Part shown: positions 9,761-18,029 of the stretch, piece by piece
How positions within the stretch are numbered: position 1 is the stretch's first letter
How the letters are laid out: every line of letters begins with the position of its first letter
Assembly: GCA_038049695.1 (NCBI GenBank)
Contig: CP142454.1
Span: forward strand, 74,935,501 to 74,999,500
Direction: 5' to 3'
DNA: 64,000 bases
Origin: Cinnamomum chago
Taxonomy: Eukaryota > Streptophyta > Magnoliopsida > Laurales > Lauraceae
Position numbers and translations under genes: made by a program
The notes under the pieces: model-generated
What the model saw: only the letters and a program-made list of their open reading frames with translations
What the model was told of the DNA's origin: nothing
Databases searched by the model: none

Positions 9761-10214
9761 TTTTTTTAATGTGTGTGTGGGAAGAGAGGAAATGTATATA
9801 CGAGGAGAACATCCCTTATCTAAATGGGATATATCCACCGTAAGTGACTAAATTGCCTAAACCATCCTTTGTCTCCATAATATGGAACCATCGCATCCAA
9901 ATTATTTGCCCTTTTATAGAACCCACTATTTGTCTCCATGATAAAAGTGCCATCATGTGGTCACTATCATTTAAAAGTGCCATCATCATTGTGCTATTTA
10001 CGTGATCCCATAATGATATGTTATTTAGGTGGGTCCACCTTAAGATTTGATTTTAACTATATGTTAAAATGACATTTTGGTAACTCAAGGCCATTTTCTC
10101 ATACAACAGGATGACGTATTATCTATAATTGAACATTTAACAAAATATGTTAGAGTAATACTCATGTACAAGCTTTCTTTAAGGTCGCCCACTTGGAACC
10201 CCACAAATCATGAA

Positions 10215-10380
10215 GGATCCAATTGGGGCCAACCCAGAGATCAAATTCAAAGTCAATCTAACACTTATAACATATTCATCCATGGCCAACAAGCTTTACG
10301 ACTTTATATAGAGTAATAAAATTGACCCTTTATCCAACGGTTAACTCATTCAGATCTTTCAAAACCCTATGGGACCCGTG
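10215..10380. repeat. Dispersed repeat, copy 2 (partner 1405-1560)
   Basis: Same block order as the copy at 1405-1560, including 'aaattgaccctttatccaa' and 'cattcagat'. It ends about 230 bases left of the CACTA element. Confidence 0.45.
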
Positions 10381-10629
10381 TAAATAAAAGGGGTGAGTTT
10401 GAATGGTCTGCTTGGATGGACCAGTTGACTCCACAAGGTGTCTTATATTGTAAGACCATAAGGGAAGCTTGTTCATGAGCATTACTCAATATGTTATAAA
10501 CACTTCAAACTTACGTAAGTTTTTAATTAATCAAGGGTTTCCCTCTCCTAAGCATCATTTGGAGTGCCCCGTTGTGAGTCCCATCTAGGGCCAAGTCAAC
10601 ATGTGGGACACTACAAGAAAATACATTTT

Positions 10630-10945
10630 TAGCGTCGAACTTATAGCGGCAGCCACTGAAATGTGACATTATAAGACACTTATACGGGTGGCCATGTCTG
10701 ACCCCCGCTGTAACTCAATTTTTAAGTTACTTTTAACAGCGGCCTCTATTGTGACCATGGGTAAAACTATCGATCCAATGGCGCCACTGGTTCCAGCGAA
10801 ATTTTTTATTTGTACCGTCGAATATTTAGCGGCGGCCAATACTTTCAATGGTAAAATGAGTTTGTAGCGTCCATAAACTGTTGGGCGACGCTAAAAATTA
10901 TTTTTAGCGGCAGCCATAAGTGACTGCCGTTAAAAGTTATATTAC
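10630..10945. repeat. Left subterminal repeats of the CACTA element
   Basis: The motif 'agcggc(g/a)gcc' or its complement occurs about every 30-60 bases ('tatagcggcagcc', 'acagcggcctc', 'tttagcggcggccaa', 'tttagcggcagcc'). In this superfamily such arrays bind the element's DNA-binding protein. Confidence 0.75.
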
Positions 10946-10984
10946 AATTTCGGGCCCTACTCTCCCTCACTCACTCTAATTTCC

Positions 10985-11395
10985 CTCTTTCGCGTGCTCT
11001 CTCCCTCTCTCGCTCTCACCTCCTCTCGTCTCCCTCTCTCACTTTCATCTCAACTCCATCACGCAGCCCTCACCGTCACCATCAACACACAAATTCCTCC
11101 CACCATCTCCAAAAAAGCCCATCTCTGTTATGCTCCCGCCCTAATCTCGCTCACTCATCCCTCTCTCGCTCTCTACCTCTCTGGCCCTCATCTCCCTCTC
11201 TCACTCTCACCTCATTTCCATCACGCAACCCTCACCCTCTCCCACCATCTCTAAAAAAACCCATCTAAGAAAACCCATCTCGGTTATGCCCTAATCTCCC
11301 TCGCTCATCCCTCTCTCTCTCTCTCTCCTCATTTCCATCACACAACCCTCACCCTCTCCCACCATCTCCCAAAAAACCCATCTCTGTTATACCAG
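10985..11395 (+). repeat. CT-rich tandem repeat, about three units of 120-150 bp
   Basis: Each unit runs from a CTCTCTC-rich stretch through 'tccatcacgca(g/a)ccctcacc' and 'caccatctc..aaaa..cccatctc' to 'ggttatgc'. Three successive copies end directly before the tubulin fragment. The sequence resembles a plant 5' leader that has been duplicated; the ORF through it is not considered real. Confidence 0.65.
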
Positions 11396-11417
11396 GCGCA
11401 GACCCATCTCTCCTTCG

Positions 11418-11503
11418 ACAAGCACTACATGAGGGAGCGAAGCTGATTGACTCTGTCCTTGATGTTGTGAGAAGGGAGGCTGAGAACTGCGATTGTTTGC
11501 AAG
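11418..11503 (+). pseudogene. Captured beta-tubulin exon fragment
   Basis: Translation of 11428-11503 gives [15 protein letters not shown] followed by [10 protein letters not shown]. This is the conserved segment around residues 110-131 of beta-tubulin, the GTP-binding subunit of microtubules, ahead of its glycine-rich phosphate loop. The piece stops at an intact donor (CAAG|GTGG) that is followed by intron-like T-rich DNA, so an exon end and part of the intron were copied. Just upstream 'cactacatgag' fits the HYTEG codons only with one or two bases missing, giving a frameshift. K replaces the family's usual E in EGAEL. Too short to make tubulin; a gene fragment only. Confidence 0.85.
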
Positions 11504-11759
11504 GTGGTTATCTTTTTCTTCTTCTTCAAGTTTTAGGTTTTCTGTTTTTAGCATCAGATTTGATATTGTTGTTTTCAAATTTGTTTCTGGTTTTGTTAGT
11601 AGATCTTGAGATGTTCATTTCTGCTGTTTTGCTTCTGTGCTTGTCCATTTAGTGATTTTTACTGATCTTTTTTTGGTATTGATGATTTTGTTCACTGATT
11701 AGCAGGTTTGATTGATTGATGGGTATTCTTTTTTAGGTGATGTTAGATATTTCTGGGTC

Positions 11760-13440
11760 TTCGTTTCTAGTCGAAGCCCAGGTCCCAGTCACACTGTCGT
11801 TTTCAAGGCTTTCGCTTTCACTTTCAAACAAAAGATCGCGAGAGACAAAGGAAAACTCAAAATAGTGGAGTTTTCTTAACTACAAAGACATCGAGCTTTG
11901 CAAGTGCAAGAGACTCGAGCCCAATGACCGGCAATGTTGGCTATTATGGCGTCTTAAACAATATTATGGAGTTACAATATATCGGTGGGAATCGGATGGT
12001 GTAATTCATGTTGGAAGTAGGTGGGCCTTGTGGATAGGTTCTCAAAACTTTTTGACCCACTTGACTCAGGGATCAACTATCCAGAAGGCTATAACTCAAT
12101 CCAGGATGCAATCCCTCATTCTCATCAACCATGTACAGCAATATAACCTATCTAGAACATAGAAATCAGCAACTACATGCAACAAAATAATCTACAACAA
12201 GTATAGAAGCAGATTATACCTTTGGAGCCCAGTAGTGCTCTAATCGAGGAGAAGACAACCAACTAGAACAAGAACTCTTCTTGAAGCAATTAGAGATCTC
12301 CAAGACCTTGTTGTCTTCCACGCTATGACCCTCTATCAGATCTCTTTTCTCAAGAAGATGTGTGGGATCTCCAAAAGAAAACCCTACTAAAAACTCTAAG
12401 GAACTAGAAGGCAACTAGAAGAGAGAGAAGAGAAGAAAATTGCCCAACACTTGCACAAATAAAGAGGGTTGGGCGTGCACTCTTATGGCTGGACGTCTAA
12501 GGGGTGTATTCCCCTTTAAATAGCCCTCAAGTCTCCTCTCTTATCTCTCTTACTAATTTGTATTAGAAGTCACACTTCCACACAAATCAGTAGCTTACTA
12601 TTACCACTATTAGAAGTCTCACTTCAAATAGAAATAGTAACTTTCTAATTCCTTCCTTTTAGAGTTTAAGTAAGAATAGAATCTTTCTAATACTTGGGCT
12701 AGCGTGGGGACCACTAGGGATTCCTTAGAAAGCTGGCTCCAACTGGGACACCATGACCCCACATCTCATGTGCAATCCGGGCCCACAGTTAATTGCAAAT
12801 AATACCATTATATAAATGCAATTGCACTCCAGTCTTAGGAACAAATTATAATGAAGACCCTAAACTTCCCAATTACCACAAGTAGACCCCTCCATCATTA
12901 TCCATGGATCAATTGGAATAAATCTGTCTCATCCAATCTTAGATCCACATCTTATTATCCTTGAGCCCCAATTAATCACAGTGATCATCGGTACCATCCA
13001 ATTAACTCTTAATCGAGATGGGTGCGCACTTACTAATGATAAATCCATTAATTGGTATAAGAGGATAATGTAGATAGATTCAATCTTGATCATTGCATGT
13101 TCCCACAGTCCTACTACTACGTACCCAAGACACCGAGGTGTTGACCTACAGTTGGCTTCACTCATTAGTGACTCAAAGCAAATGAATAGACAGAAGCTTG
13201 AGTTCATCAATGTCTCATGATTGAGAACCTATTGCTAGGGAATTATGAGAGCAGTCCTTAAATCGAGACAGTATTTCATAAGGTGCTTCTCATGGTCCTT
13301 CAATACATCCAATGTACCAGCACTATGATCCAGAATCTTACATTCTGATGATCGAGACAGATCACATTATCTCATAGTGATCAAAATGCTGTAACATTAT
13401 CAGATGAGATACCCAGTCTCATCACTGGTTGTGAAGTCTA
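11760..13440 (-). other. Retroelement-like non-coding segment nested in the CACTA element
   Basis: The stretch 11990-13440 separates two T-rich intron-like parts. On the minus strand it reads like an LTR with leader: a TATA-like 'ctatttaaa' near 12520, followed by a transcribed-looking CT-rich part and a 3' end '..cctacttccaaca' at about 12008. No matching second LTR, target duplication or retroelement ORF was found, so this is a tentative reading. The portion 11760-11985 may hold another gene fragment but I do not recognise it. Confidence 0.3.
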
Positions 13441-13879
13441 ATTTTTTTTATCAGATGAGATCCTCCTAATTATATTTTAATTTGTTTCTTTGCTATCACA
13501 TTCTTATGGAATTTAGTGTCTTTTCTAGTTTGGTTTGTTTTGCAGGGAGCAGATGGATGATTGAGCAAAAGATGTTTTATTTTTAGATTTTTGATAATGA
13601 TGTTAAACAGTGTTGAAGTAGAATGGATTTGTTTTAGTTGTTGGTTTGTTGTGGATGATTAGGATAAAACTTGCTTGTTTAAATGACAGTTATGAGGTTT
13701 GTTATTTTGAATCTTTGCATAAATTTGTTGCAAGGTTAAAATGAGTTGCACTGTGTGGACTAAGGCACTAGAAATGGCAAGGAATTGGGCAAAGATAAAA
13801 AAGAGCCTTCTGATTTCATATCATTGCATCTCTATTGGTTTCTGGGTCTTTGCTAATTTCAGAGCTCAACTTTAAAAAG

Positions 13880-13951
13880 TTCAACTTCAAAAAGTCCTCT
13901 CCCAAGGTTATGACGATGCCGCATGGACGCTGCAAAGTAAAAGTGGCAGGT
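13880..13951 (+). other. Possible captured exon of unknown gene
   Basis: Reads KVMTMPHGRCKVKVA up to a clean donor (GGCAG|GTAAGCC). It sits between the retroelement-like part and the phosphatase exons. It is coding-like in codon pattern and splice site but I do not recognise the protein; it could also be chance. Confidence 0.25.
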
Positions 13952-14432
13952 AAGCCATAGGGCGAGAAAACCCATGTTTGGAATCACTTATACTTTTGAT
14001 GCTAACTAAGGGGCTAGATCTATTACAGATTTGCTGGAGAAGTAAGACTTGTATTGCATTATCCGAATCTGAATTCTATAAAATCTGGTGGTGTAAGTTC
14101 AATTTTTGTTTTAACTTGAATTGACTGTTGTTGTTATTTTCCTGCTTTCTATAGTTCCTACTCTATAAATTTATTTTTTGTGTTTGATTCTATAATAATT
14201 CATTCCTCTGATGTTTGTGTGTCTTCTCTTTGCATTCAAATAAGACCTACTTCCACCTTCGCGTCTTTAACTGACTGGTCTCATTATAGAGTATACCCGG
14301 TTTTGATTTGAGTGAGATATTAGTAGTGAAAAGTTCATTCCTCCCACTGTGTAATTGGGAAGTCAATTCTTGATTTCTATTGAGAGAGGGTTTAGTATAT
14401 TAACTTCTGAAGCTCAGTTACTCTCAGTGACC

Positions 14433-15903
14433 ATGAGAACTAGGAAACCAAAGCGCCTAGAGGTACATACAACTTGATTTGTTACTTTGTGAACTCAAGT
14501 GTCAAAGATAGGACATTTATCAATCGAATTACGCTTTCTTTCTACTTATGTTTGTGTGTGCAGCCTTTTTGGCCTTCCATTGTAATGAAAAAATGGCTAA
14601 ACATCAAGCCTAAGGTTAATGACTTCAGCTAAGATGAGGTTGATACAGAGACAGAGAGTGAGGATGATGGTATATGACAACAAACTATCTCCTTTTTTCT
14701 GGTCAATCTTGGGGGAGGATGATTGATTCACTTATACATCTAATTGCTCTTATTTATTGTAAAATTTTCTGTTTTATTGTCTGAAGATGGAAAAGGAAAC
14801 AACACGAATCAGGCTCACAGGATGGAGAGGAAGCGATCTGTAAGCCCAGTTCGAGCTTCAGGTAACTATAAATACAAAAAAAAAAAAAAAAAAAATCTTC
14901 TTCTCTATAGAGTCATCATACTCCAGCTCCTGTTAGAAAATTTAAGCTTGGTCGATCTCATGGTAATCTGATGTTATATCTGGTATTTGCACTCATGTAA
15001 CAAGATTGGAAATGAAAATTCTTGCAGCACACAACTGTTGCACTAAGAACACCTTATGATATCATGTTGGTTTATTGTAAGTTTCAAGTAGTATCACTTG
15101 CTTATAGGGGAAAAAGATAATTCCTACAACGGCAAGAATCCAGTGTGTTGAAACTCATCTTATGGACTAGCTGCATGCCTGCATCTCCTTCAGTGAGAAA
15201 TTATACATATGATCAACATATAAAGAACATAACCTGATAACCATGGCCTTGTTGCTGTCTTGTAGGCATTGAACTGAAAAAAGCTTAATTTCCTTTTAAT
15301 GAAACCTGACTTGAACCTACAACTCCATGGACCATGGTTGTGAGATAGTGTCAAACATATAACCTTATAATAATCATTAGATATTTCAGGATATTTATAA
15401 GAACTTAAGAACTTGGGGGGACAATATCATGTTAATTCTTGCTCCACCCACTTTACCGTCTAATCCGATACACCTTCCTCATCAGGCAAATGCTTTGGGT
15501 ACTTGGAAGTGAAGCATTTCATCAAATGATCAATAACGATATCATTTTTTCCCTCTTTTCCTTGTCTGATTCTTATAATGCATCTTTCTTGATCTGAATC
15601 AGCGTGTTTGATCTGTCCAGGAACGCCATCAAATGGTCCTCCATCGAAGCATAGGAGGGGGAAGTTAGAAACTCTTCGTGTCCAATACATAAAATCAAAG
15701 GATGTGAGGTTTGGAAAGTTTGTGTAGATTAAATACTCAGGCATGGATTTGTGAAACATTAAAATAATGTGTTATTTGTATTTTATCATGGTGTGTAGGG
15801 TAACAATTGGCACATGGAATGTTGCGGGAAGAGTTCCACATGAAAATCTTGAGATTGATGAGTGGCTCTGTATGAAAGAAGCAGCAGATATGTACATTCT
15901 TGG
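14433..15903 (+). pseudogene. Captured 5' part of a type I inositol-polyphosphate 5-phosphatase gene
   Basis: Five to six exon pieces keep the order of the plant 5PTase2-like genes, which encode enzymes that remove the 5-phosphate from inositol phosphates and phosphoinositides. Pieces: 14433-14462 (MRTRKPKRLE); 14564-14669 (PFWPSIVMKKWLNIKPKV, then DFS-stop-DEVDTETESEDD); 14787-14861 (GKGNNTNQAHRMERKRS..); possibly 14911-14957; about 15600-15708 (HRRGKLETLRVQYIKSKDVR); 15799-15903 (VTIGTWNVAGRVPHENLEI, then DEWLCMKEAADMYILG). GT-AG sites and phases agree between exons 2 and 3 and between the last two. TWNVAGR and YILG are the start of the catalytic domain. The FQE.VPLNAGNVLG exon and all catalytic residues after it are absent. 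The stop at 14630-14632 (TAA where the family has a Glu codon) kills the frame. A gene fragment carried by the CACTA element, not an enzyme gene. Confidence 0.88.
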
Positions 15904-16601
15904 GTGAGTACTTCCTAATGAAGATGAATTGTTGTAAGTACCTGCTTGCAAAGTTAGTAACATAAAATGCAAAGATTGGAAGGTCAGTTATCAGGCGTGG
16001 TTTCTTGATAGTAGGTAAAATATTGTTTGTATGCACGTAGAATGATTGTGGTGGCTCTTATGACTGAATGAATGAATTTAAGTTGAAAGGGGCGAAAGAG
16101 CTACATGGTCTTGCGAATTTCTTTTGTAATCTATCAGATCCTCGCCTACTTATTGACTTTACAAGTGCCTGGTCATATAAATAATTCTTACTGTCTCATG
16201 CCTTTTATGTTATAATTGATCATGTAGATGAAAACTAATCCTTACTGCCAGACGACGACATTGGCTTAATTGATAGCTTTAAAACATACAAACAAATTGA
16301 TTAACAATAGAATCATGTGTGATATGGTGGGGATGAACAATTAAATGTGTTTAGTTTCCCCCCTCTTGTGGCACCCATCAAGTGTACCGTTTTCTCTCTC
16401 TGTTGCTGCCAAGGGCGGGGACCAGCTCCTCGGAAGAGGAGTGAGGTTCTTTTCTTCGTTTTTAATGCTGATGCTGCTTCTTCTTCTTCTTCTTCCTTCT
16501 TTTTCTTTAGATTTTACTCTGGCTACGTACAAAGGCTACTAAAGCCATTTTAGTATAATGAGTCAAGGCATACAGAGTATGAAGGGAAAACGTGCTCTTA
16601 C

Positions 16602-16694
16602 TTATATATGTATAGCATCTATAAACACAATGCGTGGATTCCCTGCTGGATCATCGTAACCGTCCAACTGCTTGGGAACAGTGTAAGGGGTGCT
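16602..16694 (-). other. Coding-like stretch, possible captured exon, product unknown
   Basis: On the minus strand, after an acceptor-like TTTTTAG, the frame reads TPYTVPKQLDGYDDP then AGNPRIVFIDAI before a stop. The string is far more protein-like than its AT-rich surroundings. It lies in the part of the CACTA element downstream of the phosphatase fragment and in the opposite orientation. I do not recognise the family. Confidence 0.3.
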
Positions 16695-17549
16695 AAAAAG
16701 AGGGGTCCTTGATTTAAGTGCAGATTGCCTTTTGATACTTTTGGAATGCAAGTCCAAGAAGTGTTGGACAAGCATCCATAACCTTCACCCCGCTTCATCA
16801 GAGTATATTTGTTTACTCATTACTGTAACACAGGCAGAATTGGAATCCTCACAAGACAGATTTTAGATGTATGCGTGTGAGACTTTATTTTATATCCTTG
16901 TAAATTTAACATCTTCCAAGATTTTACTTGGCCAACACATACATGCCCATGGATCCATTTCCTGGAGGTACTCATGCAAGTTAAAGTCTCTCTCCTGCTA
17001 CATCAGTAGCCCAACTAGTGAGAAAAAGATTAGAAAAAAAACCAAAACCAAAGTTTTTCTCCTTGCAAAGATGGATCTACAGTGGGAAGGATTGTGCTGA
17101 AAGTATGTCATTTAACTTTTTTTATTGTATTTTAATTATGTCTTCAATATGTGTAGAATTACATAGTGATGGGCTAAACTCCAATTAGAGTAAAAAAGTG
17201 AGGTTTAAAACTTATGAAAGATTGATGCTGCTTTTCAGGATTGTGGGATATTATATGCAAGTCAATGACTTGATGCCACATCATCCATTTTTATTATTTA
17301 TTTTATTTTATTCACGATGGATAATCTTTTATACTTGATTTTTGTAGTGTACAACATCGATATGGCAACACTAGGTAACTTGAGTTGTATGGGTTAAATA
17401 TGTATATGTAAGCTTGTTTATAAAGTTTCTATAGAAATGATATTATTGCTACCTTAGTTGCAGGAATATGCTAAGATGGATCTTTGTAAATTATTGGCAG
17501 GTATTTTTGTGCTTATTGTGGCCTGCAAATTGATAAAATATATATATAT

Positions 17550-18010
17550 TGCTTTTAGCGGCGGCCAAATGACCGTCACTAAAAGCAACTTTTTTAAAAA
17601 ATTGTAAATATTGCTTTTAGCGTCGGCCACATGGCCCCTGCTAAAAACGTTAGCTTTTAGCGGCGGTCATGTAAAAGCAATATTTTCAAAAATATACTAC
17701 TTTTAGTGGCAGTCAGAAAGTTTCTACCGGCGGCCATTTTTAATACTACCGACGGCCAAAAAAAATAAACCCTGCTTTTAACGGCGCTCAAAGGGTCGCC
17801 GCTAAAAAAATTGATTTTTAGCGGCACCCATTTTTACTATAACCGGCGGCCAAAGGGCGACACAAAAATTTTTCTTCGTCGTCCCACAAGCCCACGAGTT
17901 TCTTTGCGACAAAAAACAATAGCGGTCGCCGCTAAAACCTTTACCGTCCAGACATGTACCGACGCCTACCGGCGGCCACACTAACCGACGCTAATAGGCC
18001 GCCGCTGAAT
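17550..18010. repeat. Right subterminal repeats of the CACTA element
   Basis: At least ten copies of 'agcggcggcc' / 'ccgccgctaaa' variants in both orientations, more regular than on the left side. Together with the end at 18028 they fix the right boundary. Confidence 0.8.
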
Positions 18011-18029
18011 GCAGTTTTTCTTGTAGTGT

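Follow-up and report, generated by a model that had tools for sequence, protein, structure and literature searches.

The 64,000-nucleotide stretch of Cinnamomum chago DNA analyzed here (C4:74935501-74999500, hereafter the window, in a genome of 1.06 Gb in 14 contigs) contains a 7.42-kb element (positions 10609-18028, at C4:74946109-74953528) that is enclosed by inverted CACTACAAGAAAA ends and subterminal arrays. Four other loci have contributed pieces to its interior, and at least three of these are ordinary plant genes: a beta-tubulin gene, an inositol-polyphosphate 5-phosphatase gene, a glycyl-tRNA synthetase (GlyRS) gene, and an apparently non-coding locus on C7. We conclude that this is very probably a CACTA (En/Spm) element that has suffered internal deletion and lost its autonomy, and that host-gene DNA was repeatedly taken up by its TNP2-bearing relatives and ancestors. 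The loci drawn on are spread over three or more chromosomes. Capture took place at the DNA level, as the pieces keep their introns, which excludes processed cDNA as their source. The original prediction, made from the letters of the window, had described pieces of at least two host genes; the unlinked C1 and C6 loci bear this out, and the GlyRS sliver and the C7 piece had escaped it.

Ends of the element

The word CACTACAAGAAAA occurs exactly at 10609-10621 on the plus strand and at 18016-18028 on the minus strand, giving terminal inverted repeats (TIRs) that agree at 13 of 13 bp. With up to one mismatch allowed, these were its only matches within the window (shuffle mean, 0.28; two or more in 5 of 100 shuffles). 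Genome-wide, it was found 1190 times in forward and 1231 times in reverse orientation, against 52 and 50 for a reversed control. The subterminal motif TTTAGCGGC (at most one mismatch, both strands) matched 15 times across the two ends, which together measure 835 bp, and 0 times in the interior at 11400-17540, for which the shuffle mean was 0.68. The 3′ subterminal array occupies 17545-18028 on the minus strand, its TIR included. CACTA-type TIRs and subterminal repeats at either end, both hallmarks of CACTA (En/Spm) elements, are therefore present, and the predicted inverted ends and matching arrays around 7.4 kb hold. A further hallmark, TNP2 in the lineage, is provided by relatives (PF02992, PF13963, and PF13952), the window copy keeping a remnant only.

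Captured 5-phosphatase piece

Positions 14174-16324 on the plus strand carry a genomic fragment of an inositol-polyphosphate 5-phosphatase gene, with 5′ flank, five coding exons, and GT/AG introns, which matches one contiguous gene stretch at C6:73.636 Mb (93.6% identity by BLAST, 94.7% ungapped). The exons (14433-14462, 14564-14669, 14787-14861, 15621-15708, and 15799-15903) join in frame, with exon 2 holding the only stop, and the predicted series of ordered exons with introns, on the same strand as the tubulin piece, was thus recovered. A 52-bp stretch at 14911-14962 was rejected as a sixth exon, since it breaks the frame and its omission leaves one frame with a single stop. The peptide encoded in the window gave no direct match in Pfam or PDB sequences; the identity of the piece is taken from the C6 gene, which matches Exo_endo_phos2 (PF22669) and runs beyond the equivalent of 16324 into later exons. 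We presume that the enzyme is of type I and resembles plant CVP2-type enzymes.

A second locus, at C3:42.50 Mb, has an interruption of ~3 kb and is 98% identical to the C6 gene. Because the two are nearly equal in identity to the window (94.9% for C3 and 94.7% for C6), either could be the donor. The C2 copies described below were rejected as a donor gene, as they bear CACTA sequence on both flanks (13955-14157 and 17195-17368) together with the GlyRS and C7 pieces; the C6 gene was preferred over them as donor-type because it continues into further exons. The search for parent loci in the same genome that had been proposed thus led to C1 for tubulin and to C6, with C3 near-equal, for the 5-phosphatase.

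Captured tubulin piece

The predicted beta-tubulin exon end was located at 11422-11694 on the plus strand, comprising the end of exon 1 (donor GT at 11504) and the start of intron 1, with 84.5% identity to a beta-tubulin gene at C1:8115389-8115657. In the 3 kb read of this gene, the first exon is open to CLQG and matches Pfam Tubulin, and one more exon is open. The tubulin identity rests on this gene, the short peptide of the window giving Pfam Tubulin only at E 0.11. Upstream of the piece lie a TC-rich leader with internal repeats (10961-11421, plus strand), which comparison showed to be common to sister tubulin-carrying elements, and the 5′ subterminal repeat region (10609-10960, plus strand), whose main blocks are 93% identical to L055 on C10, 92% to L056 at C4:93.3 Mb, and 88.5% to L077 at C4:13.2 Mb. 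Taken as a whole, 10609-11798 matches C10 and C4 elements of this "tubulin" sublineage at 84 to 97% in its main blocks. A 376-bp query (11385-11760) returned 34 scored matches, including the window and 26 others at 92 to 97%; the rest were the C1 gene at 84% and six short exon matches at 79 to 87%. The tubulin piece is thus old and has multiplied with the family.

Two further observations concern the tubulin-type elements. In L056 (26-110) and L055 (1-60), the 5′ end is repeated in tandem with a period of ~42 bp, giving two successive TIR copies. At C4:64.099-64.118 and C4:63.753-63.769 Mb (L068), tubulin and TNP2 CACTA halves form two head-to-head inverted pairs, an inverted DUF4216 pair being present within L068; such a layout could yield hairpin RNA against the family.

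GlyRS sliver and C7 piece

Directly following the 5-phosphatase piece, 69 bp at 16326-16394 on the plus strand (GGDEQLNVFSFPPLVAPIKCTVF) are 100% identical to part of a larger GlyRS piece in sister CACTA elements on C5 and C10. The C5 piece matched PDB GlyRS chains (E 4.6e-20) and NCBIfam TIGR00389, the latter below the full-length cut-off, and had no Pfam match. When it was used as a query (L063:1040-1460), 12 of 27 matches were the same 69- to 71-bp sliver. Eleven of these 12, the window included, lie at loci that match the whole 5-phosphatase query, and one, at C6:25.29 Mb, stands beside a partial match; the 5-phosphatase copy at C6:49.36 Mb showed no sliver among the matches to this query. 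The larger fragment, of ~400 bp, is present at 12 places genome-wide, the C5 query included, at 92 to 100% identity. Next to the sliver, ~865 bp at 16393-17258 (plus strand) derive from a locus at C7:57.33 Mb that is apparently non-coding, in two blocks of 87.6% and 95.2% identity.

Relatives with the same and with other cargo

A query covering 14380-15960 gave 34 matches, 13 of which span its whole length at 93 to 100%: the window, eight copies on C2, two more on C6, one on C11, and the donor-type gene on C6. The composite of 5-phosphatase, GlyRS sliver, and C7 piece is found again on C11, C6, and C2 (at 12.36-12.75 Mb), and seven of the whole-length copies (L010-L016) are unbroken from ~14430 to at least 17368. 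Because one composite is common to the copies on C2, C6, and C11, a single capture followed by spread is the simplest account for the window-type copies examined there. The proposed search for other family copies was accordingly productive, with the same cargo on these three contigs and different cargo in sister elements. The eight composite copies on C2 (12.34-12.75 Mb; L018-L023 and L028-L031) are spaced at 28 to 37 kb with two wider gaps of ~101 and 117 kb, and two adjacent units that were compared, ~36 kb apart, are 97 to 99% identical in long blocks. The single C2 unit read contains TNP2, beta-glucosidase, topoisomerase I, and a TPT-transporter-like fragment scoring under the Pfam cut-off.

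In this C2 unit and at C6:35.37 Mb, beta-glucosidase (GH1) and topoisomerase I pieces stand in place of the window cargo between similar borders, as identified by Pfam on C2 and by DNA match and reading on C6. These beta-glucosidase elements keep a C7 fragment of ~63 bp between their cargo and the CACTA 3′ end, identical to C7 at 59 of 63 aligned bases in the C6 element and 59 of 62 in the C2 element. The same region holds GlyRS on C5 and C10; the C5 element has a DOMON/b561-like gene there as well, with Pfam scores under the curated cut-offs. At C4:25.70 Mb, the left border extends ~216 bp farther, which is also the case on C5. A proline-rich open reading frame (ORF) comes next, and neither this ORF nor the other of the two sense ORFs there matched Pfam. 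Among sisters, left cargo borders vary by up to ~230 bp. All six named pieces (tubulin, 5-phosphatase, GlyRS, beta-glucosidase, topoisomerase I, and DOMON/b561) run in the same direction as TNP2. Six of the antisense ORFs listed were scanned, of which five had no match and one a chance-level match, and we draw no claim of sense bias from them.

Mode and order of capture

These pieces may have entered by copying while an internal break in the element was being repaired, i.e., gap repair with template switching. We favor such copying over movement by neighboring insertions because the donors are unlinked, the slices are short, and no trace of internal ends or subterminal repeats was found around the cargo. 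According to the Pack-CACTA model as outlined in PMC8903248 and PMC13317346, two elements flanking a gene would have moved everything between their outer ends. For the window element this route appears unlikely, its source loci being unlinked, its pieces being short internal slices of genes, and the subterminal motif numbering 0 at 11400-17540 against 15 in the ends, with 0.68 expected by chance in the interior. A TIR-like word, TTTTGTAGTG, does occur at 17340-17349, and the interior holds two such words (shuffle mean, 0.53; maximum, 4). That the pieces are collinear leftovers of true neighboring host genes, one of two findings that the original prediction had named as fatal to it, is contradicted by donor-type loci on C1, C6, and C7 and by the recurrence of the composite on C2, C6, and C11; we found no point in favor of it and give it practically no weight.

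Slivers of one cargo adjoin another, GlyRS beside 5-phosphatase in one case and C7 beside beta-glucosidase and topoisomerase I in the other, and it seems for this reason that cargo was successively overwritten. The simplest succession would have led from GlyRS to 5-phosphatase plus C7 and then to beta-glucosidase plus topoisomerase I, each replacement presumably leaving a sliver of the earlier cargo. More tentatively, and with rather less than even confidence, we suggest that this lineage keeps a region for cargo immediately 3′ of its TNPA-like ORF, where break repair overwrites the contents again and again. The element's own borders would persist throughout, and the layers would stay readable.

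CACTA backbone and TNP2 remnant

A TNP2 transposase remnant of the DUF4216 region lies at 11814-12008 on the plus strand and is 95 to 96% identical to L067 and L068, whose translations match PF13952 (96.4% to the C11 copy and 95.4% to the C4 copy). The 63-residue remnant by itself had no Pfam match. It is interrupted by a truncated long terminal repeat (LTR) insertion at 12009-13436, to which no strand was assigned; this repeat gave 7915 first-look candidates, and among the 40 scored at least 39 other long copies were 91 to 96% identical. It is truncated at its right, as three copies read elsewhere extend beyond the right edge of the window copy. CACTA sequence directly past the TNP2 reading frame resumes at 13460-13524 (plus strand; 98.5% to C2:12383400-12383336, the first 50 bp being 100% identical to C11), followed at 13529-14168 (plus strand) by sequence from downstream of the TNPA-like (Transposase_24) ORF, which is 91 to 92.5% identical to C5:42.218 and C6:35.378 and forms the left border of the cargo interval. 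On the other side of the cargo, 17256-17544 (plus strand) is a CACTA 3′ non-coding region 92% identical to the C5 and C10 elements.

In the C2 lineage, matches to Transpos_assoc (PF13963), Transposase_21 (PF02992; E 1.7e-79), and Transposase_24 (PF03004) are scattered across several reading frames, and DUF4216 (PF13952) is matched by the C11 and C4 copies. The window copy has lost most of TNP2 and the TNPA-like ORF and is now a passenger that could move only with transposase in trans, if at all. The claim that no TNP2 is recognizable was nearly right: judged against family relatives rather than with packFinder, no transposase match exceeds 250 bp, the remains being the 195-bp, LTR-interrupted DUF4216 remnant and 65 bp past the TNP2 frame. 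The label "Pack-CACTA-like" stands insofar as a host coding fragment of more than 50 bp and no transposase match above 250 bp are present; it falls short in that no intact target-site duplication (TSD) was found.

One element or a joined pair

Several observations weigh against the history proposed above. The captures were put in order from their remnants, and identities are too close for ordering by divergence alone. The GlyRS sliver was possibly captured independently, since copies of the GlyRS fragment are scattered over 12 places, and the absence of subterminal motifs from the interior says little, chance alone predicting 0.68 against the 0 seen. The 3-bp TSD is absent from the window element, which is flanked by GGA and TTG, unlike 11 of 11 sampled family elements with identical 3-bp flanks (plus/minus end neighbors on C1, picked by eye, 3.8 to 15.2 kb apart). 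Lastly, its halves are nearest to different sublineages: the sequence up to 11798 is tubulin-type, and that after 13529 belongs to the C11/C2/C5/C6 lineage.

The last two points would follow if a deletion near 11799-11813 had joined, in situ, the tubulin-type 5′ half of one CACTA insertion to the 5-phosphatase-type 3′ half of another nearby. The paired ends would then never have moved as one unit, hence the unmatched outer flanks. We regard this as a serious contender, somewhat short of an even chance. Fusion of neighboring insertions is part of the model as outlined in PMC8903248. The TNP2 remnant is slightly nearer to C11 than to C4, a difference that is not decisive; 3′ ends near tubulin copies (C4:13.24 and C6:13.16 Mb) are 69 to 77% identical to that of the window, whereas the best-matching ends on C2 and C11 reach 81 to 83%; and no second locus among the scored matches has the 5′ and 3′ combination of the window. 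On the other hand, C6:35.37 Mb joins the tubulin piece to a similar 3′ half, but in another 5′ context in which no 5′ TIR was found, and tubulin and DUF4216 occur together at C4:64.10 and 63.75 Mb, 7.4 to 7.5 kb apart. The order within the window would also be collinear with one ancestral element. Moreover, the tubulin relative at C4:13.24 Mb has unmatched flanks too, provided that both its ends pair up, and end rearrangement may therefore be frequent in the tubulin sublineage. The second finding named by the original prediction as fatal, termini belonging to different elements, is a serious possibility in view of the missing TSD and the two sublineages.

Neither 400-bp outer flank revealed an empty site among its scored matches, in which only the window itself reaches the element-adjacent bases, and both flanks contain a dispersed, diverged repeat farther outward. 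Shortly upstream of the element, 10212-10488 is a dispersed repeat with copies on many contigs, mostly 77 to 80% identical.

Potential expression of the cargo

The pieces lie on the same strand, and GT/AG is kept in the introns between candidate exons; chimeric RNA could therefore arise from transcription across the intact splice sites. That the composite serves as a functional chimeric gene, or as a maintained small interfering RNA (siRNA) locus against tubulin or 5-phosphatase, is a much stronger proposition, which we consider improbable even with the head-to-head inverted pairs of tubulin and TNP2 on C4 as potential sources of hairpin RNA. The in-frame stop in exon 2 is found in the window copy only, being absent from 8 of 8 other aligned element copies, at least one of which has a different stop, in exon 1. 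Divergence is similar in exon and non-exon sequence, counting the doubtful stretch at 14911-14962 as exon: 14/456 and 65/1694 between the window and C11, and 24/441 and 88/1688 between the window and the C6 gene. This comparison gave no hint that the captured exons are under selection, and it is a weak test, as the C6 and C3 host loci (12/441 and 30/1688) show no exon constraint either. Together, the similar divergence and the nonsense codon argue weakly against a selected protein. As for siRNA, the 84% identity of the tubulin piece to its donor would make for weak targeting.

Relation to known elements

Host genes are also captured by the En/Spm-like elements of the Tpn1 family in morning glory. 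Tgm-Express1, a 5.7-kb soybean CACTA element, is of similar size and likewise carries several unrelated host-gene fragments, five in number, with exons and introns (as described in PMC1947982). Chimeric, alternatively spliced transcripts were demonstrated for Tgm-Express1; for the window element, TNP2-bearing sisters allow a cargo history to be proposed. With Pack-CACTA and Pack-TYPE elements, for which the account in PMC8903248 lists a host coding fragment of more than 50 bp between the ends among the criteria and describes stepwise acquisition in clusters, it shares CACTACAA ends, host coding fragments, and the lack of a transposase match above 250 bp. It differs in having no TSD, in having relatives that bear TNP2 along with the same cargo region, and in that no internal termini were found at the cargo borders. 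Jozin-type CACTA elements of Chenopodium, as presented in PMC8978399, encode transposase and carry captured gene fragments, as do the relatives found here, and capture-prone regions were noted in them; their fragments lie 5′ of ORF1, whereas here the main cargo is found on the 3′ side of the TNPA-like ORF and varies among sisters.

Overwriting of cargo in one interval was not found in the titles and abstract openings on Pack-CACTA and CACTA gene capture that were searched, a set that leaves out most subscription journals. The element is thus of a type already known (Pack-CACTA, Tgm-Express-like), with an unusually clear record of apparent overwriting. The route by which unlinked gene fragments enter DNA transposons is treated as open in PMC13317346, in which an undiscovered mechanism is allowed for. 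With donor-type genes, TNP2-bearing relatives, alternative cargo, and remnants all in one genome, C. chago offers junction-by-junction tests of repair-based capture against the fusion of insertions.

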